Assembly (NCBI GenBank): GCA_008330645.1
Contig: VLTN01000070.1
Location: forward strand, 109,489-173,488
Direction: 5' to 3'
Length of the DNA: 64,000 bases
Source of the DNA: Cafeteria roenbergensis
Taxonomy: Eukaryota > Sar > Bigyra > Bicosoecida > Cafeteriaceae
The translations under genes and the position numbers were made by a program. Positions 49,002 to 64,000 of the stretch are shown here, in pieces. The notes under the pieces are model-generated. The model was not told the origin of the DNA. It did no database searches and was given only the letters and a program-made list of their open reading frames with translations. The first letter of the stretch is position 1. Each line of letters begins with the position of its first letter.

Positions 49002-49486
49002 CGTAGGTCCAGCGGCCTCGGGCAACTTGGTCGGAGCGGACCGACAAAGCGCGAGGCAGTCTCCAGCTCGGCTCCAGGGCTGCTAATGTAATGGGATCTC
49101 GGCCGCACTTTGGCAGCGGGTGCGTGCAGAGGTGCTGCGGCCTGTTCAGGTCTGTTGCCGGCGCGGGGGCGACGCGCTCGTGTTGCCAAGCTCGCAGCGT
49201 CTGACGCTGCCGACGAGCCCTGGCTCCACAGGAAGCGCACGTGCACGCCGCGCCCCTTCCGCCCCGGACCGGAGGGTGAGGGCTGAGAGGGGACGGGGCG
49301 GGGAAGGAGGCAGCGACTCGGCTCGACTTTGGGCGGCTGTCTTGAGCATCGGCGGCTGGCAGAGCCACCTGCAACAGCAAGGGAGCGTTCGCCGGCCCCG
49401 TGTCATGCGCCCACTCGCACCGCCACAGCGCTCGGAACACCGCGCAGGCTCCCCCGCGCTGCTGCCGCTCATACCGGCGATCGAGA
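49002..49486. promoter_or_regulatory. Divergent intergenic region, kinesin-14 / lactone oxidase
   Basis: A 485-bp gap between divergent starts. An in-frame ATG at 49400 would extend the downstream protein by 29 basic residues in front of its signal peptide; I treat this as 5' UTR. Confidence 0.4.
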
Positions 49487-51061
49487 ATGCGCCTTCTTCT
49501 GCTGGCCGTCGCTGCCGCAGGCCTGGCCGGCACCACCGCAAAGGCCCCACAGTCGGCAGCAGCCGAATGGTTCAACTGGAACACTCTGCAGCACTGCGAG
49601 CCCTGGACGTTTTCGCGGCCGACCACCGAGGCCCAGGTCGCCGATCTGGTACGGGCGGCGTCTGCTGCCGGCCACCGCATCAAGACCGTCGGAGCCGGGC
49701 ACTCGTTCTCTGGCATCACTCTGACAGACGGACTGATGCTTCAACTGGACGCGCTCGACGCCCCGCTGAGCGTGACCCCGCTGGACCCATCCGCGCCGTG
49801 GACGCCCGGGTCGCCCTCGAAGCCAGCGAGCGGCAGTGCCGCCGTTGAGGTGCAGGCGGGCATGCGCGTGCACGTGCTCAACAGCTTCCTTGCGTCCAAG
49901 GGGCTCGCGCTCGAGAACACGGGCGCCATTGCCTTGCAGAGCGTGGCAGGCGCCACCTCGACCTCGACTCACGGCACGGGCCGCAACCTCGGCTCGATGG
50001 CAACGAGCATCCTGGGCCTCCGCCTCGTGCTCGCCAATGGCACGGTGCTCGACGCCTCTGCGTCCCTCAACCCGGGCGTATTCCGAGTCGCTCGCGTCGG
50101 CTTGGGAGCTCTAGGGGTGATTGTGCGTGTGACAGTCCGCGCAGTCCCGCTCTTCAAGCTCCGCAGGACGGCCACGCCGTACTCGCTCAAGGAGCTCCTG
50201 CCATGGGTCTGGCCGCAGGCATTCGACCGCTGGGAGCGGATGCAGTGGTACTTCACGCCCAGGACCGACTCGGCCACCCTATTGCTCCGCGAGGCGGTTC
50301 CCTTTGACACCCCCATCGTGGACTGCTGGAACGGCTCCGCCAAACTCGCATGGCGAGATCCGTTCGCGGACAAGGTCGCCGACTGGCACCCGTATGCCAA
50401 CGCCTCCGACGTCCAGGTGGTCTCGGGGCCGGAGGGGCCAACGCCGGTGGTGCCGCAAGCGAGCCGCCGCAGAGGGGACACCCAGGCGGGAGGAGCTGAG
50501 CCGGTGCCCACGGGGCCCAGCGTCGAGTGCGTGGACCTCAGCTACCGCGCGCTCGCCCACCAGACCGACGACTACGACCTGTACGAGGAGATGGAGGTGT
50601 TCGTGGACGCGAACGCCTCGCAAGCCTTGATGGAGGAGTTCATCGCGTTCCAGAACTCCACGCCTCTCCCGCCGCAGCCAGCAGGCAGCCAGCCCTGGGC
50701 CAAGTATGCCCTCTTCACCGGCATGCGCTACGTGGCAAAGGACGACATTGCCCTCTCCATGATGAACGGGCGCGACACGGGCGTGATCTCCTTCATCACT
50801 CTCGGAAACCACACTCACCCCGCCGACCCCAGCACGTTTGCACACTTTGCGGAGCAGCTTGAGCGGCTAAGCAACGCCGACGGCGGCCGCTGGCACTGGG
50901 GCAAGATGAACTGGGCAACGGCCGCCGACACCGCCCGCGTGTATCCGGCCAGCTCGGTGAGCCAGTTTCTCGAGCTCCGCGCACAGCTGGACCCGTCTGG
51001 GGCATTTTTGGATGACTACCTCGTCCAGAGGCTGCCGAACACAGGATCAGTCGCAAGATGA
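49487..51061 (+). CDS. Secreted FAD-linked aldono-lactone oxidase, gulonolactone/arabinonolactone oxidase family (524 aa)
   Basis: Intronless. The N-terminus is a signal peptide (MRLLLLAVAAAGLAGTTAKA). The FAD-binding domain shows NTLQHCEPWTFSRPTTEAQV, then VGAGHSFSGI with His72 in the position that binds FAD covalently in L-gulonolactone oxidase. Also present are the pyrophosphate-loop strand ENTGAIALQSVAGATSTSTH-GTG and LRLVLANGTVLDAS. The C-terminal ALO domain has MEVFVDANASQALMEEF, GRWHWGKMNW (the family's H-W-G-K motif) and a typical C-terminus, LDPSGAFLDDYL. The substrate is probably L-gulono- or L-galactono- or D-arabinono-1,4-lactone, giving ascorbate or its analogue; which one cannot be read from sequence. 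It acts in the ER lumen or outside the cell. Confidence 0.88.
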   Translation: MRLLLLAVAAAGLAGTTAKAPQSAAAEWFNWNTLQHCEPWTFSRPTTEAQVADLVRAASAAGHRIKTVGAGHSFSGITLTDGLMLQLDALDAPLSVTPLDPSAPWTPGSPSKPASGSAAVEVQAGMRVHVLNSFLASKGLALENTGAIALQSVAGATSTSTHGTGRNLGSMATSILGLRLVLANGTVLDASASLNPGVFRVARVGLGALGVIVRVTVRAVPLFKLRRTATPYSLKELLPWVWPQAFDRWERMQWYFTPRTDSATLLLREAVPFDTPIVDCWNGSAKLAWRDPFADKVADWHPYANASDVQVVSGPEGPTPVVPQASRRRGDTQAGGAEPVPTGPSVECVDLSYRALAHQTDDYDLYEEMEVFVDANASQALMEEFIAFQNSTPLPPQPAGSQPWAKYALFTGMRYVAKDDIALSMMNGRDTGVISFITLGNHTHPADPSTFAHFAEQLERLSNADGGRWHWGKMNWATAADTARVYPASSVSQFLELRAQLDPSGAFLDDYLVQRLPNTGSVAR

Positions 51062-51651: not shown

Positions 51652-52487
51652 TGAACATCGTTGGGGGGGGTCAAAGACTCGCGTCACCATACCACACACT
51701 CGAGTCACAGACTCGCCAATCACCAATCCAGCAACTCCATCACCGATGAATCACAAACCGCGCCAAACCCGCAATCCCAAGTCTCAAGTCCCAGATCCCT
51801 GCCATCACACTGCCACGAGTCGCCACTCAGCCGCCCCTGCTCACCGCATACGCTCCACCTGCTGTCGCAGGTACTGCGTCTGCCCGATCAGCTGGGTCGC
51901 CAGTCCCTTGGCGATGACCTCGTTCAGCCTCGACAGCCAGCGGAAGGCCCAGCGCGCACGCTCCCTCGGCCGGTCGCCGAAGGCCGTGTCCGCCACCGTC
52001 TTGAGGAAGGCGAAGGCCGCCGGTCCCATGCGTCCCGTGGTCGTGACGACGAAGGGCACAATGGAGCTCATGTTGTCCTTTGTAGCTGAGCTCTTCTTGT
52101 ACTCCCCCATCTTGTCGTTCTCACGGCGCTCGAGAAAGGCGTCCATGTTCTGCAGGCCCTGCGTCACGTAGGACTTGCTCACCGCCGAGGTGATTTGCAC
52201 GTCGACGAGACAGGTGGTCTCGAAGTCGACGTGCACCCGCAGGTCCGGTCGCTTGCGCGCGGCCTCGCTGGACCCCGGCTGGGATCCGAAGCGCGCCTGC
52301 CCGTCCTGCCAGCTGGAGGGCTCCACCACCGACTGCAGCCCCGCCGAGCGCACCGCCGCATGTATAACGTCGCGGACGTCGTTGTGCGCCCGGATGGTGG
52401 AGCCCTTGCCGCAGCGGCAGCGCGCCAGGTGATGTGCCACGCCCGAGACCCCGCCGATGTGGACGGTGCCCCTCGCGGTGGCGTCCT
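51652..52487 (-). mobile_element. RLE-type non-LTR retrotransposon, copy 1 (solitary, 5'-truncated)
   Basis: Minus-strand element. Its 3' terminus (left) is the shared end TGAACATCGTTGGGGGGG on the plus strand. The matching sequence stops at about 52487, where it diverges from copies 2-4. It keeps the 3' UTR and the last 200 or so codons (Cys/His segment and endonuclease domain), open from the stop at 51841. The 3' tail reads TTCATTCATTCA on the element strand, a short tandem tail the other copies lack. No target-site duplication is evident on comparing the flanks by eye. Confidence 0.9.
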
Positions 52488-53126
52488 GACCCTGCAGCCT
52501 AGGATCGTTCAGCGCCGCGCCCGTGGGAGGGCCGAGCCCCGTGCCCCGGGACATGTTTTTGTGGCGCCGCACCCACGCCGTGCAACAATCATCGGTCCCT
52601 TGCCTGCGTGTGGCGGCCTAAGCGCGCCTTGGTGTGACACCCTCTAACTGCCGCCGGCGCGAGAGCGCTGCTGCGCGGTCGCGGGCTCTGCCGATTGTCG
52701 CGGCTGCCAAAGAAGACTGCACTCTTGCGCGCCAGAGCGAGCAGCAAACGCGGCCGCCCGCTGCCTCGCACTGCTTCCCGCTCCTTCCTCCCGAGCTTGC
52801 TGCGCCCGTCTTGAGGCTGGTGCTGCTCGGCCCCGTGGATCGTGAGCTGCGGCGGAGGCGGCCATTCCGTGTTCCAGGTCGCTCTCGCTGCCGCGCTGGC
52901 CGACGCAGCGCTGGCACCCGCCCTCGCAGTGCCTTCATGGCATGATCGCAGCGTGCACGTTGCCGGCCATTGTGCTGGGCGGGGCTGACGCTGAGGGACG
53001 GCTGCAGCGTGCTCGCGCGCCGTTGTTTTTCGAGGCCAGTTAGCATCACGGAAAATCGATCCCGTCTCGCCGCCGCCCCGCCGCCGCAGTGCGCAGCGCC
53101 CGCGGCTAGTGGCCCCTCCCACGACC
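52488..53126. other. Region between retroelement copy 1 and the NTPase gene
   Basis: A 639-bp stretch that should hold the promoter of the NTPase gene. No conserved frame or repeat was recognised. Confidence 0.4.
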
Positions 53127-56100
53127 ATGGCAGACCGTCCGCAATCATCTTCGTCTTCGTCCTCGTCCTCGTCTTCGTCTTCGTCTTCGTCTTCGTCCTC
53201 GAGTTTCTGTTCGCAGGCGAAGCCAAGTGGCCGGCGCGCCGCCAAGCGCGAGCGCGAGCACGAGGGCAGTGTTGCCGGCGATGCCCGGACTGGCAAGCGA
53301 TCCCGCCGAGAGAAAACTGGCGATGCCGGTGCCTCTGCTGCCAATCCCGCTGTGAAGGAGGGCCAGCGTCAAGCCGCCGCTGCGGATGAACATGGAACCG
53401 CTGAGCGCAAGCCGCCCAAGGGTGACAAAAAGCACAAGGAGGCCAAGAGGGCCACGAGGCGCAGCGCTAGCGCTGGCCAAGCCGAGCGTCATCGACGTGG
53501 AGAGTCAGCCGACGCCGCCGCCAGGGGGCCTGCTGCAGCCGATCATTCTGGTGCCGCGGCAGCGGCGGCTTCCTCAGCCGCGACAGTTCCTCGTGGTGCA
53601 GGCTCCGACGATCGCTGTTCGGCTCTTGACGGCACTGGTTCTCGCTCTGGTTCTCGCTCTGGAAAGTCCTCCCCCAGTGCTGCTGCCGCCGCTGCCAGTG
53701 GAGCAGCTCTGCTCCGCAGTGCCGTGGCCACTGCAGCAAGGGTTGGACTTGGCGCAGAGCCAGCTCCGCAAGCTGCAGAAGAGTGGGACGCATCCCTACT
53801 GTCACCGGGCGATGCTGGGGAAGACTTGAGTGCCCTGATGTCCTCTGAGCTCAGATTCAGCCGGACCCCGCCTGCACAGGTCTTCACGCGGGTTGAGCTT
53901 GCCCGGGAAGCGCTGCAGTTCTTCAACAAGCTTCGCCGCGCCAAGGGGCTCAGGTCGACCGGCAAGACAAAGAACTTTACCGCTCTCCTGGGCAAGCTTG
54001 GTGCGGCGAGCATCAAGCTTGGAAGCGGAGTCCACATTCGTGACGTGCTCCGCAGGGCCAAGGTGAAAGTAATAATGGCAGGCGGCATAGATCAGCTAGC
54101 CGAGTGGCACCGTCTTGGACATCTTCGGGGTGTCGCTGACGGTTTGGCTGAGGAGGTGGCCAAGCGGTCCACCATTAAGGCAGCGCAGAAGCATGCCGAC
54201 GTCCTGCTGGCAAGGGCCAAGCGCGAGGCCGAGGAGCAGGCCGAGAAGGCCAAGCGCGAGGCCGAGGAGCAGGCCGAGAAGGCCAAGCGCGAGGCCGAGG
54301 AGAGAGATCGGAACCAGTCGCTGCTCTCTGCCATGAATCGGCTCGTTGTGTCAGTCTCCAGCCAACGGTCTCGTGGCACACGTGCAACCACTTTCGACGG
54401 CATGGGCCGCGCTGTTCTGCGCTCGTTGCAGTCGCTTTCCTCTGGCGACGCAGAGGCCGTATTCCTTGGCACAGACCGTCGTCGGTGTGTTGCTCAGGCG
54501 GTCGCTGACAGTGTCGTATCCTTGGCAAGCAAGCGCATGCGGGGCACTACGACGAATGTCAACTTCCTCACAGGGCCAAAGGGCTCTGGTAAGACGACCC
54601 TGCTATGGGAGGTTGCACAAGCTGCCACTAGTGCACTGCCCGAGTGCAGCCCCTTCGATGTCGTTGCTGTCAAAGTCGACGGTGCCGCACTCTCCAAAGA
54701 CCAGGCAACCTTCGACGCAATCGACGCTTCGGAGGGATTTTCTCCGCATTTGGTCACCTGTGTTCAGTTCGCCTTGTGGCAGGCAGGCATTTTGGATGGC
54801 ACCGAGCGCGGTCGTCGCATGGAGACTGCGCCACGGAATTCGCATAGTTGGAATTCAGAGTTCGAGGACCTGTTTGCCGAGGTCAAGGCAATCACCAGGC
54901 GCGAAGTTCGCGTCCTTCTCATCGTGGATGAGTTCCAGGAATTCTTCAGATTCAGCAACCTGGGACCGAAGTTCCGCGGACAACTCACATGGCTGATGAA
55001 CAGTGTGCCAGCTATGGACACCTGGCTAACAGGCTCGCCAAGCATCGCCAGGAAGCTGCTTTTCGATCCAATTGCGATGCAAAGCGACCCTCGGATCAAG
55101 CCGTATCAAGGGCTGATTGGCGACCGATCCGTGGTCAACGTTACCAAGATTCGAGACGTGGGTAGGCTCGAGCGCTTCACTGCAGACCAGGCCATTCATT
55201 TCCTCATCTCCTGCCTCCCAGATGGCCTGCACGATTCGAAGCAGGACGATCTGCGAATGATCCGGCGGCTTCGCGAGCGAATGCGGAAGCTTGAGGGCAA
55301 GCCCAGCGACATCGTGGAGCGCCTGCGCCAGTCTACGGAGTGGAGGTCTCTTGCCGCAAAGCTTGACATGATTCAACCGGTCGCCAGAACGCTGAAGATT
55401 CACTTTCGGGGCATTGACGTGGACATGGGCACAAGCCTCGACCCGTTTGACCGAATGGAGAGTGAAGAAGCGACAGCATTTTCCTCCGTGATGTCCAGCA
55501 GCCTTGCCAAGCTGATTGTAACGGGCTTGGCCGTGTTGCCTGACGATGGCTCCACCATGCACGCTGCCACTGCAGCCGACATGTCAATGCTGCCGCTGCG
55601 TGGCTCCGTCTCGAAGCGGGACAAGGAGCTTCAGATTGACTCCGAAACTGATCTTCTCGTCGATCTCGGCATCATTCGAGAGGAAAAAGGTCAGCACATG
55701 CTGAGTTCGAAGCTTCACCGCTTGTTTGCTCTTGGCCTGCTCTCAAGGCCCTCAGGGCTGAATGCTCGCCAAATGTGGGCGATGCTTGACCCAACCGGGA
55801 AATCCGGCGAAGCCATGGAGCTGCTGGCAGCCCAAGGCATCGCCTCAACTGGTCCCGCATCGTTTCTCCACCGCTGCACGGACGTCCACCCGCAACTGCA
55901 GCTCAAGGAGGACGCAACTGACGGGACCCCGCTACTGTCGGACTGGCTCAAGGGCATGAAGGAGCTCAAAATCGTTGCTGAGCCAGCAGAACCAATGGCA
56001 GCCACCACGGGGGGTCCGTCAGTAGCAGCAAGATCCATCGCGGTGCAGCAGCTTTCAGCTCTCGACCTGAAGCGCACAAGCACGGCAGTCGCCCGGCCGC

Positions 56101-56708
56101 TCCACTTCCACAAGGAAGCGCCCGACAAATTTGGATCCGACGCGACAGTGGTGCTAGATGTTCCCACAGGCCACGGCACCTTGGTTCGGCATGCGCTTCG
56201 AGTGCAGGTCAAGGTTGGCTCGGACAAAGGCGCGGTATCCCGGATGGGGATCAGCGAAGCAGCCAAAATACTCGACCGAATGCACCAGCCGTTTCGCAGC
56301 GGCGGCACTGGCAGCAGCACACAGTCCCTGCTCGACAGCCCCTTGACGCGAGTCCCGGGCGAGTGTGAAGCCATCGTTGTCTGGAACTGTTTGGTGACGT
56401 GCAAGCACGTCGGGAACGTTGGTGAACTGGAGCGTGTTCTTCAGGTGCAACGCGATGCTTCGGACAATATGTGGCACCCACCAGCGGAGAGTGTGGTCTT
56501 GCGCGCAGCTGTTTCCGCTGGCCTGGCCTGGACCGAGGCAGCTGCAGCAATGGCTTCCAGCAGCTTGCACCCCTTCAAGTCGGATGCAAACGGCGTGCCG
56601 GTGTACGTCGTTCCGCTCGTCGCCGATCACAAGGTCATGCTCGAGCTGTGGCCGAAGGCTGTCAGAGCATTTGCCAAGTCAGTTGGCATTCCCAACTATG
56701 CTGTGTGA
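53127..56708 (+). CDS. Crinkler/RHS-like P-loop NTPase with possible C-terminal restriction-nuclease motif (1193 aa)
   Basis: Intronless; start ATG 53127 (an upstream in-frame GTG was ignored). Twenty Ser residues follow MADRPQ, then a basic, disordered region with nuclear-signal-like clusters. Residues about 240-360 form a helical header (AREALQFFNKLRRAKGLRS). Three tandem copies of AKREAEEQAEK lie near 363-395. The NTPase core has Walker A GPKGSGKTT at about 483-491 and Walker B VLLIVDEFQEFF at about 595-606, in the style of STAND/ORC-like ATPases. Near 1005-1030, DATVVLDVP and LRVQVKVG give a D-x(n)-Q-x-K pattern as in Mrr-type nucleases. Its GC content is visibly lower than that of neighbours, and non-LTR elements flank it on both sides. 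The architecture resembles eukaryotic CR (Crinkler-RHS) proteins; trypanosome RHS genes are retroelement hot spots. The NTPase call is firm; the CR and nuclease calls are inference. Confidence 0.7.
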   Translation: MADRPQSSSSSSSSSSSSSSSSSSSSFCSQAKPSGRRAAKREREHEGSVAGDARTGKRSRREKTGDAGASAANPAVKEGQRQAAAADEHGTAERKPPKGDKKHKEAKRATRRSASAGQAERHRRGESADAAARGPAAADHSGAAAAAASSAATVPRGAGSDDRCSALDGTGSRSGSRSGKSSPSAAAAAASGAALLRSAVATAARVGLGAEPAPQAAEEWDASLLSPGDAGEDLSALMSSELRFSRTPPAQVFTRVELAREALQFFNKLRRAKGLRSTGKTKNFTALLGKLGAASIKLGSGVHIRDVLRRAKVKVIMAGGIDQLAEWHRLGHLRGVADGLAEEVAKRSTIKAAQKHADVLLARAKREAEEQAEKAKREAEEQAEKAKREAEERDRNQSLLSAMNRLVVSVSSQRSRGTRATTFDGMGRAVLRSLQSLSSGDAEAVFLGTDRRRCVAQAVADSVVSLASKRMRGTTTNVNFLTGPKGSGKTTLLWEVAQAATSALPECSPFDVVAVKVDGAALSKDQATFDAIDASEGFSPHLVTCVQFALWQAGILDGTERGRRMETAPRNSHSWNSEFEDLFAEVKAITRREVRVLLIVDEFQEFFRFSNLGPKFRGQLTWLMNSVPAMDTWLTGSPSIARKLLFDPIAMQSDPRIKPYQGLIGDRSVVNVTKIRDVGRLERFTADQAIHFLISCLPDGLHDSKQDDLRMIRRLRERMRKLEGKPSDIVERLRQSTEWRSLAAKLDMIQPVARTLKIHFRGIDVDMGTSLDPFDRMESEEATAFSSVMSSSLAKLIVTGLAVLPDDGSTMHAATAADMSMLPLRGSVSKRDKELQIDSETDLLVDLGIIREEKGQHMLSSKLHRLFALGLLSRPSGLNARQMWAMLDPTGKSGEAMELLAAQGIASTGPASFLHRCTDVHPQLQLKEDATDGTPLLSDWLKGMKELKIVAEPAEPMAATTGGPSVAARSIAVQQLSALDLKRTSTAVARPLHFHKEAPDKFGSDATVVLDVPTGHGTLVRHALRVQVKVGSDKGAVSRMGISEAAKILDRMHQPFRSGGTGSSTQSLLDSPLTRVPGECEAIVVWNCLVTCKHVGNVGELERVLQVQRDASDNMWHPPAESVVLRAAVSAGLAWTEAAAAMASSSLHPFKSDANGVPVYVVPLVADHKVMLELWPKAVRAFAKSVGIPNYAV
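53145..53204. repeat. TCN triplet tract encoding 20 serines
   Basis: A run of TCT, TCG and TCC codons directly after the first six residues of the NTPase gene. On the opposite strand it reads as Glu-Asp repeats, which explains a spurious minus frame. Confidence 0.9.
54214..54302. repeat. 33-bp coding tandem repeat (AKREAEEQAEK x3)
   Basis: Three near-identical 33-bp units (the third partial), encoding a charged helix just before the ATPase domain of the NTPase gene. The near-identity at DNA level implies recent expansion. Confidence 0.85.
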
Positions 56709-56769
56709 ACGTGAGGCGCGAGGCTCGCTCTGAAATGTGCTGCATGCGACGAAAGGAGCATCGTTTGAT

Positions 56770-57977
56770 TGAACATCGTTGGGGGGGGTTCGAAAACTCG
56801 CGTCACCATACCACACACTCGAGTCACAGACTCACCAAACACCAATCCAGCAACTCCATCACCGATGAATCACAAACCGCGCCAAACCCGCAATCCCAAG
56901 TCTCAAGTCCCAGATCCCTGCCATCACGCTGCCACGAGTCGCCACTCAGCCGCCCCTGCTCACCGCATGCGCTCCACCTGCTGCCGCAGGTACTGCGTCT
57001 GCCCGATCAGCTGGGTCGCCAGTCCCTTGGCGATGACCTCGTTCAGCCTCGACAGCCAGCGGAAGGCCCAGCGCGCACGCTCCCTCGGCCGGTCACCGAA
57101 GGCCGTGTCCGCCACCTTCTTGAGGAAGGCGAGGGCCGCCGGTCCCATGCGTCCCGTGGTCGTGATGACGAAGGGCACAATGGAGCTCAAGTTGTCCTTT
57201 GTAGCTGAGCTCTTCTTGTACTCCCTCATCTTGTCATTCTCACGGCGCTCGAGAAAGGCGTCCATGTTCTGCAGGCCCTGCGTCACGTAGGACTTGCTCA
57301 CCGCCGAGGTGATCTGCACGTCGACGAGACAGGTGGTCTCGAAGTCGACGTGCACCCGCAGGTCCGGTCGCTTGCGCGCGGCCTCGCTGGACCCCGGCTG
57401 GGATCCGAAGCGCGTCTGCCCGTCCTGCCAGCTGGAGGGCTCCACCACCGACTGCAGCCCCGCCGAGCGCACCGCCGCGTGCAGGACGTCGCGGACGTCG
57501 TTGTGCGCCCGGATGGTGGAGCCCTTGCCGCAGCGGCAACGCGCCAGGTGATGTGCCACGCCCGAGACCCCGCCGATGTGGACGGTGCCTCTCGCGGTGG
57601 TGTCCCGCTGCACGCACGCGCAGTTGATCGACACGCCGTCTGGCACCACGTGGTCGGCCTCGGAGGCTCCGATGCGGTAGCGGGTGACCACCGCAAACTC
57701 CTCGTCCGTGAGCCCGCGGGGTCCCATCATCGTGTTGCGGAGCCAGTAGTGCGTTCCCGGCACGCACGCCTCTCGGAACGCGACCAGGTCGCTCATGACG
57801 CGCAGCATGGCCGGGTCGTCGATGTTGGCGACACGCTTCTCCGGCGTGCCTCGTCGTCAGATCCGAGCTCCATCATCGCCTCCAGCGCCATCTCCTCGAT
57901 CTCGGCGCGCAGCTCTTCCAGGCCCTCGACAGCCCCCGCGATGTCCGACCTCCACACGTGCGCCAGCTGATAGCGCT
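56770..57977 (-). mobile_element. RLE-type non-LTR retrotransposon, copy 2 (5'-truncated, internal deletion)
   Basis: The 3' terminus lies only 61 bp past the stop of the NTPase gene. It keeps the 3' UTR and the ORF end (stop at 56960), open to about 57808. Compared with copy 3, about 340 bp are missing: the sequence jumps at about 57850 from the region equivalent to 59058 to that equivalent to 59399. The 5' end stops at 57977 and is followed after one extra base by the 3' terminus of copy 3. Its ORF is therefore broken. Confidence 0.9.
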
Positions 57978-58094
57978 GTGAACATCGTTGGGGGGGGTCG
58001 AAAACTCGCGTAACCATACCACACACTCGATTCACAGACTCACCAATCACCAATCCAGCAACTCCATCACCAATGAGTCACAAACCGCGCCAAA

Positions 58095-58126
58095 CCCACA
58101 ATCCCAAGTCCCAAATCCCAGATCCC
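58095..58126 (-). other. G-quadruplex motif in the retroelement 3' UTR (copy 3)
   Basis: On the element's sense strand there are five GGG runs separated by 4, 4, 4 and 5 bases. Copy 4 has five runs with spacings 8, 3, 4 and 5 (62055-62089). Copies 1 and 2 have four runs with one 11-base spacer. Confidence 0.7.
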
Positions 58127-58167
58127 TGCCATCACACTGCCTCGAGTCGCCACTCAGCCGCCCCTGC

Positions 58168-61100
58168 TCACCGCAAACGCTCCACCTGCTGTCGCAGGTA
58201 CTGCGTCTGCCCGATCAGCTGGGTCGCCAGTCCCTTGGCGATGACCTCGTTCAGCCTCGACAGCCAGCGGAAGGCCCAGCGCGCACGCTCCCTCGGCCGG
58301 TCGCCGAAGGCCGTGTCCGCCACCTTCTTGAGGAAGGCGAAGGCCGCCGGTCCCATGCGTCCCGTGGTCGTGATGACGAAGGGCACAATGGAGCTCATGT
58401 TGTCCTTTGTAGCTGAGCTCTTCTTGTACTCCCTCATCTTGTCATTCTCACGGCGCTCGAGAAAGGCGTCCATGTTCTGCAGGCCCTGCGTCACGTAGGA
58501 CTTGCTCACCGCCGAGGTGATCTGCACGTCGACGAGACGGGTGGTCTCGAAGTCGACGTGCACCCGCAGGTCCGGTCGCTTGCGCGCGGCCTCGCTGGAG
58601 CCCGGCTGGGACCCGAAGCGCGCCTGACCGTCCTGCCAGCTGGAGGGCTCCACCACCGACTGCAGCCCCGCCGAGCGCACCGCCGCGTGCAGGACGTCGC
58701 GGACGTCGTTGTGCGCCCGGATGGTGGAGCCCTTGCCGCAGCGGCAACGCGCCAGGTGGTGTGCCACGCCGGAGACCCCGCCGATGTGGACGGTGCCTCT
58801 CGCGGTGGTGTCTCGCTGCATGCACGCGCAGTTGATCGACACGCCGTCCGGCACCACGTGGTCGGCCTCGGAGGCTCCGATGCGGTAGCGTTCCACCACC
58901 GCAAACTCCTCGTCCGTGAGCCCGCGGGGTCCCATCATCGTGTTGCGGAGCCAGTAGTGTGTTCCCGGCACGCATGCCTCCCGGAACGCGACCAGGTCGC
59001 TCATGACGCGGAACATGGCCGGGTCATCGATGTTGGCGACACGCTTCTCCGTCGTGCCCTTGGCCAGCGCCTCGGCCCTGCAGCGTGCTGTGCAGGCCCT
59101 GCGCGCCTTGGCCAGCCGGCGCAGGAAGGCGCACTCGTGCTTGATGCGCAGCATGTCATCGTGGTGCAGCACCATCTTGCGCTGCCAGGGCGCCTCGGTC
59201 TGCTCGTTCGCCCGCGCTGTCACCCCGTCGCCGTACAGGCACTTGCGGAGCTTGGCCTTCAGCTCGCCCGGCAGCTTACCCAGGGTGTCGGGCAAGAAGC
59301 CCTCGAACCCTGTCGCTGCGGCCAGGCAGCGGGCTCCCTTGCATGCCCTGATGAACTCCTCCACCAGGTTTGCAGTTGCCTCCATGTCATCCGACGACTC
59401 GTCGTCAGATCTGAGCTCCATCATCGCCTCCAGCGCCAGCTCCTCGATCTCGGCGCGCAGCTCTTCCAGGCCCTCGACAGCCCCCGCGATGTCCGACCTC
59501 CACACGTGCGCCAGCTGGTAGCGCTTCTTCACCCTGGCGTCATGAAGGTCGGCCTCCTTGCCCACGACGCAGTCCTTGTCCGGCCTGAAGTACCGTGCCT
59601 CGGTGCAGGCGTCCTTGTACTCCTTGCTGTCCCGCTCGTAGTCCCGGTAGGCTCCCTTGGCGACCTCCTCGCATCGCAGCAGGATGTCGCCCACCTCCTT
59701 GGTCGCATCGCTGCGGTCTGAGCGCTTCAGCGCCCGCATCACGAGTTTCTTGAGCGAGATGCCCTTCCAGTTGGGGTCGTTGCCGTCCGCGTCCGCGTCG
59801 GGTCCGTCCCTGGCCAACCCGATCGCCGGCGTTCGCCTGACCGAGTAGACCTGTGCCGCATCCGCTCTCGGCTGTGCGGCATCAGATGTCTCTTGGCCGG
59901 TTGGAGCGCCAGCCGCACTAGCTGCCGCTGCGCCGCCGCCGCTCGTCGTCATCTCGGTCGCCGCTCCCGCCGCGCTGGCGGCAGCCGCACCTCCGCCGAC
60001 CGTCTGGCCTCCGCTTGTCGGTGTTGGCTGATGCCCCGGTTCAGCCGCTCCCCCCGTACCGCTGACGAGCCAGCCGTCCAGCGTACCTGCAAGCTGCTGC
60101 CCGTGCGCCGGCCCCTCCTCGCAGTCCTCCTTGGACTCGCTCTCTCCGACCGCCGGGTGGTCCACCCACGGCGTGCCGCCCGCTGCAGCAGCCGCCGCAC
60201 CCGACTCATCCTCCGCTTCCGCCTCGCCGGCGTTGGCTGGTCCCGCTCCGGCACCACTCCCCGACGCCGCTTCGCCTCCGCCTCCACCAGTGCCGGGTCC
60301 GTCGAGGGCCTCCTCCGGCGGTGGTGCCATCTCGAACCGCCCTTTCCGCATGTCCCGAACGGCCTCGATGAAGCCCGCTGTCGCCTCGAAGCGGAACTGC
60401 GCCACGCCAGGCAGGCCCATGCCCCCGGCTTTGCAGCCCTTGCTCAGCATCTTTGCCAGCCTCATCTGAGCGTAGCCTCCCTTCTTCAAGGCCGGGTTGG
60501 ACGCTGCCGATGCGAGCCGAGTCACACCGTCGGCTTCCCGGCCCAGGAGCGCCCACCACGCCTCCCGCCTTGCGTGCTCGTCCGGCAGCCCCCGAACAAG
60601 CGCCTCGATGGCCTTGGACATGGCCTCACGGAAGCCGTCCTCGGTCACCGTGCACATCTCGTCCGAGAGCGCGTGGCCGATCGCATCCAGCTCCGTCTTG
60701 TGCGCCACCGCCGACAGGTTGGCCAGCAGCGCCGCATGGAACACCGCCAGCTCCTGGCCCGCCGCCGCACCCGCTGCTCTGTGCAGGTAGCTGAACTTCT
60801 GGCCCACCACCGACAGCAGCAGGTGGTGCGCCCGCTTGAGCCCGCAGACCTCGATGCCCGCGAGCAGGCGCTCCGCGGCCGGCCCGAACTCCTTCTCCAG
60901 TCGCTTCATCGAGTGCTCAAGTGCCACCTCCGGCGGGAGTTCCTCCCCTACAGGACACTGCAGCACCGCCACGCTCCGTTCGGTGAGGTGGCACCCCTCC
61001 AGCACCGAGGGTGGGGACCCTGGATCGTCCCTACTCCGCTTCATCTCCCGCCGAATTCTGGCTTTGGTTCTCTCGAGCTGTCCTCGCTTGCACAGCACCT

Positions 61101-61935
61101 GGGTCTTGTCGGCGTTCATCCGCAGCCCCACCGTGCTGAGCCGCTCGGCCAGCATCTGGGCTGCCTTGAAGGCGCTCCTCCTCGGGCCCACGAGCGTCGT
61201 GTCGTCGGCCATCTGCAAGATGAGCACATCTGGGAAGGCGCGCCTCACCTCGTCCACCAGGGGGTGCACTGCGATCGCAAACAGTGCGCCCGCTGCCGGG
61301 TCGCCTTGACGCACGCCCCTGTTGGACTCCAGCTCAAAGACCTCGCCCTCGTCCGTGGCAAAGAGGAGCGGGCTGGACGAGCCGTACAGCGCCAGCACCG
61401 CCGGCACGAGCTTCTCGTCCAACCGCCGCACCTCCTCGATCATCGCGCGCCTGGAGACGGAGTTGTAGGCGTTGGCCATGTCCAACGCTACCACCACCGT
61501 TCTGATCTCTCCCTCCTCGAACGCGGTGCGGACAGCATGGACCAGCCTGCACGACCCGTCTCGGCAGCCCAGGAACTGGAAGCGCAGCTGGTCCAGCAGT
61601 CCGTGCTTCCCCAGGATGGTGTTCACCACCTTGCCCACCAGCTTGCCCAGGCCCGAGACCATGGCCACCGGCCTGATCTTGCCGTTGCCCTTGGGGATCG
61701 CCATCAGGGTTGACGACCCGAGGACCCTGCGCTCCTCGGCAGAGAGGTCGTTCCTCAGCGCCCTTCGGACAAATGACACGAGCGCATCCAGGTCCTTCTC
61801 GGCGATGTTCTCCAGCTGCTTTGCCACCATGCCGTCCGGGCCCACGGCCTTCTTGTGTGGCATCGACTGAATCGCCGCCGACACCATTTCCCGGAGCTCG
61901 GAGTCGGTGAGGTCCGGCGCTTCTCCCTCCACCGT
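58168..61935 (-). CDS. Retrotransposon polyprotein: reverse transcriptase + Cys/His motif + restriction-like endonuclease (5'-truncated)
   Basis: About 1256 element-derived residues. RT domain: PHKKAVGPDGMVAKQLE, then ALDMANAYNSVSRR (motif A, first catalytic Asp, about 61466-61495), RGVRQGDPAAGALFAI (motif B) and LQMADDTTLVGP (motif C; Met replaces the usual Phe or Tyr before ADD, about 61189-61218). A thumb region follows, then a 200-residue Gly/Ala/Ser-rich linker with a duplicated GGGAAAASAAGA. Near the C-terminus are a Cys/His segment (INCAC and HHLARCRCGKG, about 58735-58830) and the nuclease motif RPDLRVHVDFETTRLVDVQI (about 58520-58580), as in R2-type restriction-like endonucleases. 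There is no stop up to the truncation. The only upstream ATG lies in copy 4's 3' UTR, so no native start survives. This copy's final residues are VERLR; the others end VERMR. Confidence 0.92.
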   Translation of the reverse strand, partial: TVEGEAPDLTDSELREMVSAAIQSMPHKKAVGPDGMVAKQLENIAEKDLDALVSFVRRALRNDLSAEERRVLGSSTLMAIPKGNGKIRPVAMVSGLGKLVGKVVNTILGKHGLLDQLRFQFLGCRDGSCRLVHAVRTAFEEGEIRTVVVALDMANAYNSVSRRAMIEEVRRLDEKLVPAVLALYGSSSPLLFATDEGEVFELESNRGVRQGDPAAGALFAIAVHPLVDEVRRAFPDVLILQMADDTTLVGPRRSAFKAAQMLAERLSTVGLRMNADKTQVLCKRGQLERTKARIRREMKRSRDDPGSPPSVLEGCHLTERSVAVLQCPVGEELPPEVALEHSMKRLEKEFGPAAERLLAGIEVCGLKRAHHLLLSVVGQKFSYLHRAAGAAAGQELAVFHAALLANLSAVAHKTELDAIGHALSDEMCTVTEDGFREAMSKAIEALVRGLPDEHARREAWWALLGREADGVTRLASAASNPALKKGGYAQMRLAKMLSKGCKAGGMGLPGVAQFRFEATAGFIEAVRDMRKGRFEMAPPPEEALDGPGTGGGGGEAASGSGAGAGPANAGEAEAEDESGAAAAAAGGTPWVDHPAVGESESKEDCEEGPAHGQQLAGTLDGWLVSGTGGAAEPGHQPTPTSGGQTVGGGAAAASAAGAATEMTTSGGGAAAASAAGAPTGQETSDAAQPRADAAQVYSVRRTPAIGLARDGPDADADGNDPNWKGISLKKLVMRALKRSDRSDATKEVGDILLRCEEVAKGAYRDYERDSKEYKDACTEARYFRPDKDCVVGKEADLHDARVKKRYQLAHVWRSDIAGAVEGLEELRAEIEELALEAMMELRSDDESSDDMEATANLVEEFIRACKGARCLAAATGFEGFLPDTLGKLPGELKAKLRKCLYGDGVTARANEQTEAPWQRKMVLHHDDMLRIKHECAFLRRLAKARRACTARCRAEALAKGTTEKRVANIDDPAMFRVMSDLVAFREACVPGTHYWLRNTMMGPRGLTDEEFAVVERYRIGASEADHVVPDGVSINCACMQRDTTARGTVHIGGVSGVAHHLARCRCGKGSTIRAHNDVRDVLHAAVRSAGLQSVVEPSSWQDGQARFGSQPGSSEAARKRPDLRVHVDFETTRLVDVQITSAVSKSYVTQGLQNMDAFLERRENDKMREYKKSSATKDNMSSIVPFVITTTGRMGPAAFAFLKKVADTAFGDRPRERARWAFRWLSRLNEVIAKGLATQLIGQTQYLRQQVERLR

Positions 61936-61938
61936 GAT

Positions 61939-64000
61939 TGAACATCGTTGGGGGGGGTCGAAAACTCGCGTAACCATACCACACACTCGATTCACAGACT
62001 CACCAATCACCAATCCAGCAACTCCATCACCAATGAGTCACAAACCGCGCCAAACCCACAATCCCAAGTCCCAAGCCCAGATCACTCCCATCACACTGCC
62101 TCGAGTCGCCAATCAGCCGCCCCTGCTCACCGCATACGCTCCACCTGCTGTCGCAGGTACTGCGTCTGCCCGATCAGCTGGGTCGCCAGTCCCTTGGCGA
62201 TGACCTCGTTCAGCCTCGACAGCCAGCGGAAGGCCCAGCGCGCACGCTCCCTCGGCCGGTCGCCGAAGGCCGTGTCCGCCACCTTCTTGAGGAAGGCGAA
62301 GGCCGCCGGTCCCATGCGTCCCGTGGTCGTGATGACGAAGGGCACAATGGAGCTCATGTTGTCCTTTGTAGCTGAGCTCTTCTTGTACTCCCTCATCTTG
62401 TCATTCTCACGGCGCTCGAGAAAGGCGTCCATGTTCTGCAGGCCCTGCGTCACGTAGGACTTGCTCACCGCCGAGGTGATCTGCACGTCGACGAGACAGG
62501 TGGTCTCGAAGTCGACGTGCACCCGCAGGTCCGGTCGCTTGCGCGCGGCCTCGCTGGACCCCGGCTGGGATCCCGAAGCGCGTCTGCCCGTCCTGCCAGC
62601 TGGAGGGCTCCACCACCGACTGTAGCCCCGCCGAGCGCACCGCCGCGTGCAGGACGTCGCGGACGTCGTTGTGCGCCCGGATGGTGGAGCCCTTGCCGCA
62701 GCGGCAGCGCGCCAGGTGATGTGCCACGCCGGAGACCCCGCCGATGTGGACGGTGCCTCTCGCGGTGGTGTCCCGCTGCACGCACGCGCAGTTGATCGAC
62801 ACGCCGTCCGGCACCACGTGGTCGGCCTCGGAGGCTCCGATGCGGTAGCGTTCCACCACCGCAAACTCCTCGTCCGTGAGCCCGCGGGGTCCCATCATCG
62901 TGTTGCGGAGCCAGTAGTGTGTTCCCGGCACGCATGCCTCCCGGAACGCGACCAGGTCGCTCATGACGCGCAGCATGGCCGGGTCGTCGATGTTGGCGAC
63001 ACGCTTCTCCGTCGTGCCCTTGGCCAGCGCCTCGGCCCTGCAGCGTGCTGTGCAGGCCCTGCGCGCCTTGGCCAGACGGCGCAGGAAGACGCACTCGTGC
63101 TTGATGCGCAGCATGTCATCGTGGTGCAGCACCATCTTGCGCTGCCAGGGCGCCTCGGTCTGCTCGTTCGCCCGCGCTGTCACCCCGTCGCCGTACAGGC
63201 ACTTGCGGAGCTTGGCCTTCAGCTCGCCCGGCAGCTTACCCAGGGTGTCGGGCAAGAAGCCCTCGAACCCTGTCGCTGCGGCCAGGCAGCGGGCTCCCTT
63301 GCATGCCCTGATGAACTCCTCCACCAGGTTTGCCGCTGCCTCCATGTCATCCGACGACTCGTCGTCAGATCTGAGCTCCATTCATCGCCTCCAGCGCCAG
63401 CTCCTCGATCTCGGCGCGCAGCTCTTCCAGGCCCTCGACAGCCCCCGCGATGTCCGACCTCCACACGTGCGCCAGCTGGTAGCGCTTCTTCACCCTGGCG
63501 TGCATGAAGGTCGGCCTCCTTGCCCACGACGCAGTCCTTGTCCGGCCTGAAGTACCGTGCCTCGGTGCAGGCGTCCTTGTACTCCTTGCTGTCCCGGTCG
63601 TAGTCCGGTAAGCTCCCTTGGCGACCTCCTCGCATCGCAGCAGGATGTCGCCCACCTCCTTGGTCGCATCGCTGCGGTCTGAGCGCTTCAGCGAGCTCCT
63701 CACGAGTTTCTTGAGCGAGATGCCCTTCCAGTTGGGGTCGTTGCCGTCCGCGTCCGCGTCGGGTCCGTCCCTGGCCAACCCGATCGCCGGCGTTCGGCCT
63801 GACCGAGTAGACCTGTGCCGCATCCGCTCTCGGCTGTGCGGCATCAGATGTCTCTTGGCCGGTTGGAGCGCCAGCCGCACTAGCTGCCGCTGCGCCCGCC
63901 GCCGCTCGTCGTCATCTCGGTCGCCGCTCCCGCCGCGCTGGCGGCAGCCGCACCTCCGCCGACCGTCTGGCCTCCGCTTGTCGGTGTTGGCTGATGCTCC
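61939..64000 (-). mobile_element. RLE-type non-LTR retrotransposon, copy 4 (runs off the window, frameshifted)
   Basis: The same element; its 3' terminus abuts copy 3 and it continues past the right edge. Against copy 3 it carries single-base insertions at about 62573, 63382, 63502 and 63795, and a loss near 63607, so the ORF is broken into at least five pieces. It is a decayed copy. The 3' UTR and endonuclease region remain highly similar to copies 1-3. Confidence 0.92.
62127..63880 (-). pseudogene. Frameshifted retrotransposon ORF of copy 4
   Basis: Consecutive pieces of the endonuclease, Cys/His and linker regions lie in different frames: stop at 62127 to about 62573, then 62573-63381, then fragments up to about 63880. 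Each break corresponds to a one-base indel against copy 3. It cannot be translated as one protein. Confidence 0.88.

Follow-up and report, generated by a model that had tools for sequence, protein, structure and literature searches.

Predicted NTPase-nuclease genes of Cafeteria roenbergensis form repeated units with truncated tails of an R2-like retrotransposon

Introduction

CR proteins, as described in passages of a 2017 review (PMC5289972), combine a header, an NTPase and a nuclease of the REase type, reassort headers and cores, and are associated with transposable elements. For CR-type NTPase-nucleases, this tie to transposons is usually one of neighbourhood and ancestry. Among telomeric retrotransposons, HeT-A/TART, GilM/GilT and MoTeR form head-to-tail arrays at ends, with the 5′ end outward and with 5′ truncations, and MoTeR arrays undergo recombination and may end up as internal relics (sections of PMC5537684, PMC10088271 and PMC7367193).

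We analysed a locus of Cafeteria roenbergensis that resembles both kinds of system. Its gene family is like the CR proteins in having a header, an NTPase with a REase-type nuclease, header-core reassortment and a link to a transposable element. Unlike theirs, the unit includes the element tail as a constant component, with common breakpoints, and the header was found in Cafeteria only. The element arrays have the same layout as those of HeT-A/TART, GilM/GilT and MoTeR; unlike those systems, as the cited sections describe them, a multigene family is welded to the element tails, and a telomere repeat was not found here. No CR-like family welded to element tails with common breakpoints appears in the passages of PMC5289972 used here. 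Among the matches listed for literature on Cafeteria with Crinkler, telomere or draft genome, no title concerned the family or Cafeteria telomere elements; the string "telomer" does not occur in the main text of either PMC6972860 or PMC8547959, and is indexed twice in the full text of the latter. A first-pass annotation of the locus had held that a free-living host would be a new example of such genes. This must be given up, since free-living CR carriers already figure in passages of the 2017 review (PMC5289972).

Results

The gene of the window and its predicted domains

The genome comprises 167 contigs and 36.3 Mb; the DNA analysed, hereafter the window, makes up the final 64 kb of one of these contigs, C70, which is 173,488 bases long. 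On the plus strand, positions 53127..56708 are open from an ATG for 1193 codons in a single frame, and the product has homologues. GC content at 53-57 kb is 58-65%, against 64-80% elsewhere in the window (1-kb steps). The first-pass annotation had described the gene as uninterrupted, lower in GC than its neighbours, Ser-rich at its start and equipped with P-loop motifs, and all four statements were borne out.

The leader (residues 1-238; 53127..53840, +) is Ser-rich, then Arg/Lys-rich and, judged by eye, nuclear-signal-like; copies on C4, C46 and C52 have related Ser/Arg/Lys-rich leaders. A header domain, delimited by comparison with its family, follows (residues 239-362; 53841..54212, +), and then an AKREAEEQ repeat that sequence and alignment suggest to be a coiled-coil-like linker (about residues 364-397; 54216..54317, +). 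Upstream of the gene, 52487..53126 (+) is conserved at 84-88% over 624-639 bp in C4, C46 (two loci) and C52, and is the presumed promoter in the short class of units defined below. The neighbour gene at 49400-51061, with FAD-binding and D-arabinono-1,4-lactone oxidase domains, is an ordinary gene of the host that borders the array on its inner side.

The P-loop NTPase domain (residues 468-643; 54528..55055, +) corresponds to the stretches matched by the Pfam models AAA_16 and AAA_22. Both a Walker A motif, GPKGSGKTT, and LIVDEFQEFF are present in the 1193-residue protein (P0001). Its AAA_16 match (E 2.8e-7, 31.6 bits) lies slightly below the cut-off of 32.6, which a homologue, P0003, exceeds at 35 bits. 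NCBIfam gave weak P-loop and coiled-coil rows, none close to a cut-off, the PADLOC matches were weak P-loop rows (best E 0.0055), and the solved-structure search with P0001 gave a single row at chance level (E 0.66).

Residues 954-1193 (55986..56705, +) form a probable PD-(D/E)XK-type nuclease domain. A possible Q-x-K motif had been pointed out in this region. Q1027 and K1029 proved invariant, together with D1000, G1003 and D1005, across 13 sequences, including three that share only 18-19% identity with that of the window, and the motif D-x2-G-x-D...Q-x-K is present in all three core types described below. A model of the domain (pLDDT 70.7) had the PD-(D/E)XK nucleases Avs3 and Cap4 as its best VIA-align matches, with modest scores. 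Hence the catalytic pattern D...(D/E/Q)xK on a common core fold, which defines this superfamily, is found here with modest structural scores, and the NTPase-nuclease architecture anticipated in the first pass is probably correct. In comparison with the Cap4/Avs3-type nucleases of bacterial defence, the nuclease is C-terminal in the Cafeteria proteins, and Z is modest. The AlphaFold model of the full core was weak (pLDDT 43.8) and its Foldseek list was headed by ORC (E 0.033); solved-structure searches with core profile A3 gave only rows with E of at least 0.13, and with core profile A4 no rows.

One header, three cores and two upstream modules

Twelve homologues of the window gene were found, 11 of them named Cafeteria roenbergensis. 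The best row was 90% identical, and the window's own protein was absent among the 12. The header (about 123 residues) is present in 22 database proteins, 21 of which are named Cafeteria. Three homologue searches returned no relative named as belonging outside Cafeteria; two of them scored the 7991 and 7996 candidates with the most words in common with the query, so that distant relatives may exist elsewhere. Across the genome 48 header matches were obtained, and removal of two fragment rows (C51:915-1001 and C128:14029-14097) left 46 that were counted as headers. Open frames of at least 700 codons contain 33 of these.

Three diverged cores follow the header: A, which is that of the window, B and C, each made of a P-loop NTPase and a C-terminal domain. 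In profile comparisons A matched B with a probability of 98 over 653 columns and C with 90 over 650 columns; the direct match between B and C was weak (12.8). Genome searches with A, B and C yielded 32, 23 and 21 matched pieces, respectively. The header of the window is 98% identical to that of P0010 despite the type B core of the latter, a sign of recent swapping. Values of dN/dS were 0.22-0.52 for pairs of cores or whole frames, with synonymous sites saturated in the most distant pairs, and indicate that family pairs evolve under constraint.

Upstream modules were compared in DNA cut out at 30 header loci. The upstream flank of the C14 unit is matched at 25 of these (in part only at C29, C45 and C85), and the match of C34 is limited to the leader and header of that unit; the upstream flank of the window is matched by four loci (C4, C46 twice and C52). 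The C14-type module goes with an Arg-rich MLARG... leader, where the start was read, and the window-type module with a Ser-rich leader having Arg/Lys clusters. By eye, the former leader looks mitochondrion-like and the latter like a nuclear signal. At the N-termini of L070, L071 and P0005, the leader MLARG...PPSARTA resembles a mitochondrial presequence, unlike the Ser/Arg/Lys-rich leader of the window gene.

The first-pass annotation had called the gene CR/RHS-like. This is right as regards architecture, a P-loop NTPase followed by a nuclease of the REase superfamily, and as regards modularity, one header standing before several C-terminal cores, with the precision that these cores are distantly related rather than unrelated toxins. 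It did not extend to a Crinkler or RHS assignment at the sequence level: no RHS or Crinkler model was among the Pfam rows shown for 9 proteins (P0001 at E≤1 and 8 relatives at E≤10, with the best 25 of 28 rows for P0003), and neither an LxLFLAK-like motif in the first 400 residues nor an HVLVxxP motif was present in 27 family proteins. The family appears to work like a CR protein, membership among CR, Crinkler or RHS proteins being unproven.

A retroelement forming arrays at contig ends

Four copies of a retroelement lie on the minus strand around the gene. Upstream, 51652..52486 is a 5′-truncated tail (element positions 1-834 from the 3′ end; 96.4% identity to copy 3 by blastn). Downstream, copy 2 (56770..57977) is 5′-truncated with an internal gap, comprising element positions 1-1080 and 1420-1547; copy 3 (57979..61938) encodes a reverse transcriptase (Pfam RVT_1, E 3.1e-20) and a C-terminal region that we take to be a restriction-like endonuclease; and copy 4 (61939..64000), delimited by comparison between copies, runs off the end of the contig. 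The reading frame of copy 3, 58168-62013, starts inside copy 4. The best match of the reverse transcriptase among PDB chains was R2 (4.8e-5), and we refer to the element as an R2-like non-LTR retrotransposon, R2 being nearest by solved-chain match rather than by a clade tree. The gaps reported earlier between gene and copies, 640 bp on the upstream side and 61 bp on the downstream side, are exact. The picture of a gene bracketed by retroelement copies is therefore accurate as to their presence on both sides, and has to be revised as to their nature: the copy upstream belongs to the unit as a constant component, and those downstream make up an array running to the contig end.

Complete-ended copies have a common 3′ terminus, TGAACATCGTTGG, or a one-base variant of it. 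Their 5′ cut points vary, and copies mostly abut, with few extra bases between them; fillers such as TTAGGTTGA were noticed between some. Element counts rest on 150 scored of 333 candidates, and distances to ends were counted on contigs of at least 100 kb, which excludes 9 of the 46 headers and 25 of the 150 element copies. On these contigs, a contig end is no more than 20 kb away for 106 of the 125 scored copies, where 19.1 would be expected. The arrays read near contig ends are head-to-tail, and, with contig ends standing in for chromosome ends, the 3′ end points inward in 102 of the 106 near-end copies, which is the arrangement typical of telomeric non-LTR elements.

Three consecutive TTAGGG or TTTAGGG repeats occur at no place in the whole genome, and three of the AGGTT type at one, which is interior; the assembly ends inside arrays. 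The assembly thus shows no ordinary telomere repeat. The polarity bias of 102 to 4 points to real ends, because an assembly broken within interior arrays would show copies of either polarity at its ends, and such breaks were rejected on this ground as the source of the end location. We infer that the contig ends are chromosome ends.

Gene and element tail form a repeated unit

A link between homologues and retroelement copies, proposed in the first pass, turned out genome-wide to be stronger than suggested. Neither of the two outcomes that the first pass had named as refuting its reading came about: the homologues are linked to retroelements, and the C-terminus has its best structural matches, if modest ones, among PD-(D/E)XK nucleases. 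In 25 of the 46 headers, an opposite-strand copy of the presumed endonuclease region of the element is found upstream at one of two fixed distances, 1410-1502 bp (short class, 12 headers) or 2036-2106 bp (long class, 13 headers). These two distance windows were defined after the data were seen. Random displacement of the headers by at most 10 kb put on average 0.61 of them at the two distances, and never more than 4 in 5000 runs, and uniform placement of headers on their contig gave a mean of 0.08 and a maximum of 2. The remaining 21 headers have no copy at either distance among the 150 scored of 333 candidates, and some of them are at contig ends or on small contigs.

Where sequence was read, breakpoints of the element are common to different loci and account for the spacing. 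Position 1298 of the element is the break in the long class, as seen in C14, which has core A, in C76 and C20, both with core C, and in C45, which has core B (the spacing of C45, 2843 bp, is longer and places it outside the 25 headers). Between C14 and C76, 3280 bp spanning tail, upstream segment, leader and header are aligned at 91%. Short-class units break at 834 in C46 as in the window, and at 830 in both C4 and C52. By position, core A is found 5 times in the short class and 2 times in the long, core B 6 and 4 times, and core C 1 and 7 times, so that all six combinations exist.

Headers are also concentrated near ends, with 21 of 37 within 20 kb of an end for 5.2 expected (contigs of at least 100 kb), 19 of the 21 pointing outward. 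Of 55 element-bearing contig ends, 16 also have a header; three ends have a header only. Joint location near ends as the sole cause of the pairing was rejected, since gene and element are still paired in the interior: of the 16 headers lying more than 20 kb from an end, 12 are accompanied by an element copy at 3 kb or less, as would be the case for about 0.5% of random points, and a header stands within 6 kb of 14 of the 19 interior element copies. From the fixed spacing and the common breakpoints where read, interior loci included, we conclude that the gene plus its truncated element tail is a repeated unit, and not a gene beside an insertion hotspot.

Discussion

Predicted function

In each protein, a leader and a header, both interchangeable, would precede a P-loop NTPase and, after it, a PD-(D/E)XK-type nuclease. 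The mechanism we consider likeliest is that of a putative NTPase-gated nuclease, acting on DNA inside the cell when licensed by ATP, with the leader setting the address: the nucleus for the Arg/Lys-rich leader of the window, the mitochondrion for the alternative MLARG... leader. These destinations, like the enzyme activity and the biological role, are predictions. Cafeteria is known to host a giant virus and virophages (sections of PMC8547959 and PMC6972860), which makes a putative role in antiviral defence plausible. Secretion, as CR-type effectors directed at prey bacteria or competitors, would be in line with the inter-organismal conflict that CR proteins of the same architecture are thought to serve (passages of PMC5289972); we think it unlikely, because the leaders, Arg/Lys- and Ser-rich or Arg-rich and mitochondrion-like, look to the eye unlike signal peptides.

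How units spread

We propose that the locus belongs, as a single unit, to a dispersed Cafeteria gene family of mostly subtelomeric location, in which the gene would travel fused to an upstream, antisense, truncated tail of a telomere-seeking non-LTR retrotransposon. Element copies would be added serially to chromosome ends, 3′ ends inward. Breaks or erosion in the arrays would be repaired by recombination or break-induced copying, with element and header sequences as handles, and repair would move whole units between chromosome ends and reassort upstream modules and cores. Taken jointly, a dispersed and largely subtelomeric family, an ATP-gated nuclease, a unit with an element tail and spread by recombination of arrays make an explanation to which we give slightly better than even chances.

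In trypanosomes, elements are said to insert repeatedly at a hotspot by RHS genes. A similar preference of the Cafeteria element for a site beside these genes would explain why the upstream copy keeps its side and orientation in 25 headers. It would not explain why 5′-truncated copies end at one and the same base in separate loci, before different cores; common truncation points being impossible from separate insertions, independent hotspot insertion was rejected at the loci read, and we regard it as most improbable in general. Two routes remain, recombination between arrays and retrotransposition of whole units.

According to the second route, the unit would be a gene-carrying, non-autonomous retrotransposon: an RNA starting just past the stop codon would run antisense through the gene into the truncated tail, and be copied to chromosome ends by element enzymes recognising its 3′ end. 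The 3′ UTR promoters of HeT-A, which serve the next copy of an array (section of PMC5537684), offer a precedent, and each unit read at a contig end starts at the exact element 3′ terminus. Left breakpoints are common while right ends differ between loci, in agreement with this route: the distance from stop codon to next element copy is about 61 bp in the window, 46 in C46, 15 in C14, 23 in C76, 1 in C20 and 75 in C45, roughly 690 bp in C55 and C128, and the C13 gene is cut short 20 bp before an element copy. Common left and differing right ends fit recombination too. Against retrotransposition of units, those of C20 and C45 are without a complete element 3′ end, and their interior flanks gave no convincing target-site duplication (at C20 a short common string about 40 bp from each edge, at C45 none). 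A tree was built from a selected subset, 7 unit tails with 15 free copies. In it the tails of C14 (support 0.74), C76 (0.94) and the window (0.94) each join free copies from the contig on which they lie, as exchange would give. This proximity favours spread by recombination between arrays. The tails of C46, C20 and C45, all interior loci, cluster together (0.88), a grouping that does not speak for exchange. On balance, copying of whole units as retrotransposons seems to us improbable, and we favour recombination between arrays, in which new elements would seal eroded ends as in MoTeR arrays.

A bolder combination of these ideas, which we consider a long shot, is that the telomere-seeking retrotransposon took up the NTPase-nuclease family as cargo. 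Tail and antisense gene would then be a mobile unit reverse-transcribed onto chromosome ends and sealed by new copies, with interchangeable nuclear and mitochondrial leaders; if true, the host of CroV and virophages would own a mobile, self-diversifying repertoire of DNA-cutting defence proteins. What sets the family apart from the usual CR-type tie to transposons is a physical fusion with countable common breakpoints at many loci. If it holds, it provides a concrete route by which a chromosome-end element would spread and reshuffle putative DNA-cutting conflict proteins in a free-living marine protist. New moves of units could be followed in the four published Cafeteria strain assemblies.

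Some loci depart from the single, complete unit. Tandem units are found at C46:188-201 kb, far from the contig end, and at C76:130-146 kb, near the end. The two A cores of C46 are mutually identical, as are the two C cores of C76, which indicates either very recent duplication or an assembly effect. At C36:140.9 kb and C100:36.5 kb (L022 and L023), the final portion of a core A gene abuts an element fragment, the middle of the unit being missing, and the join is common to both.
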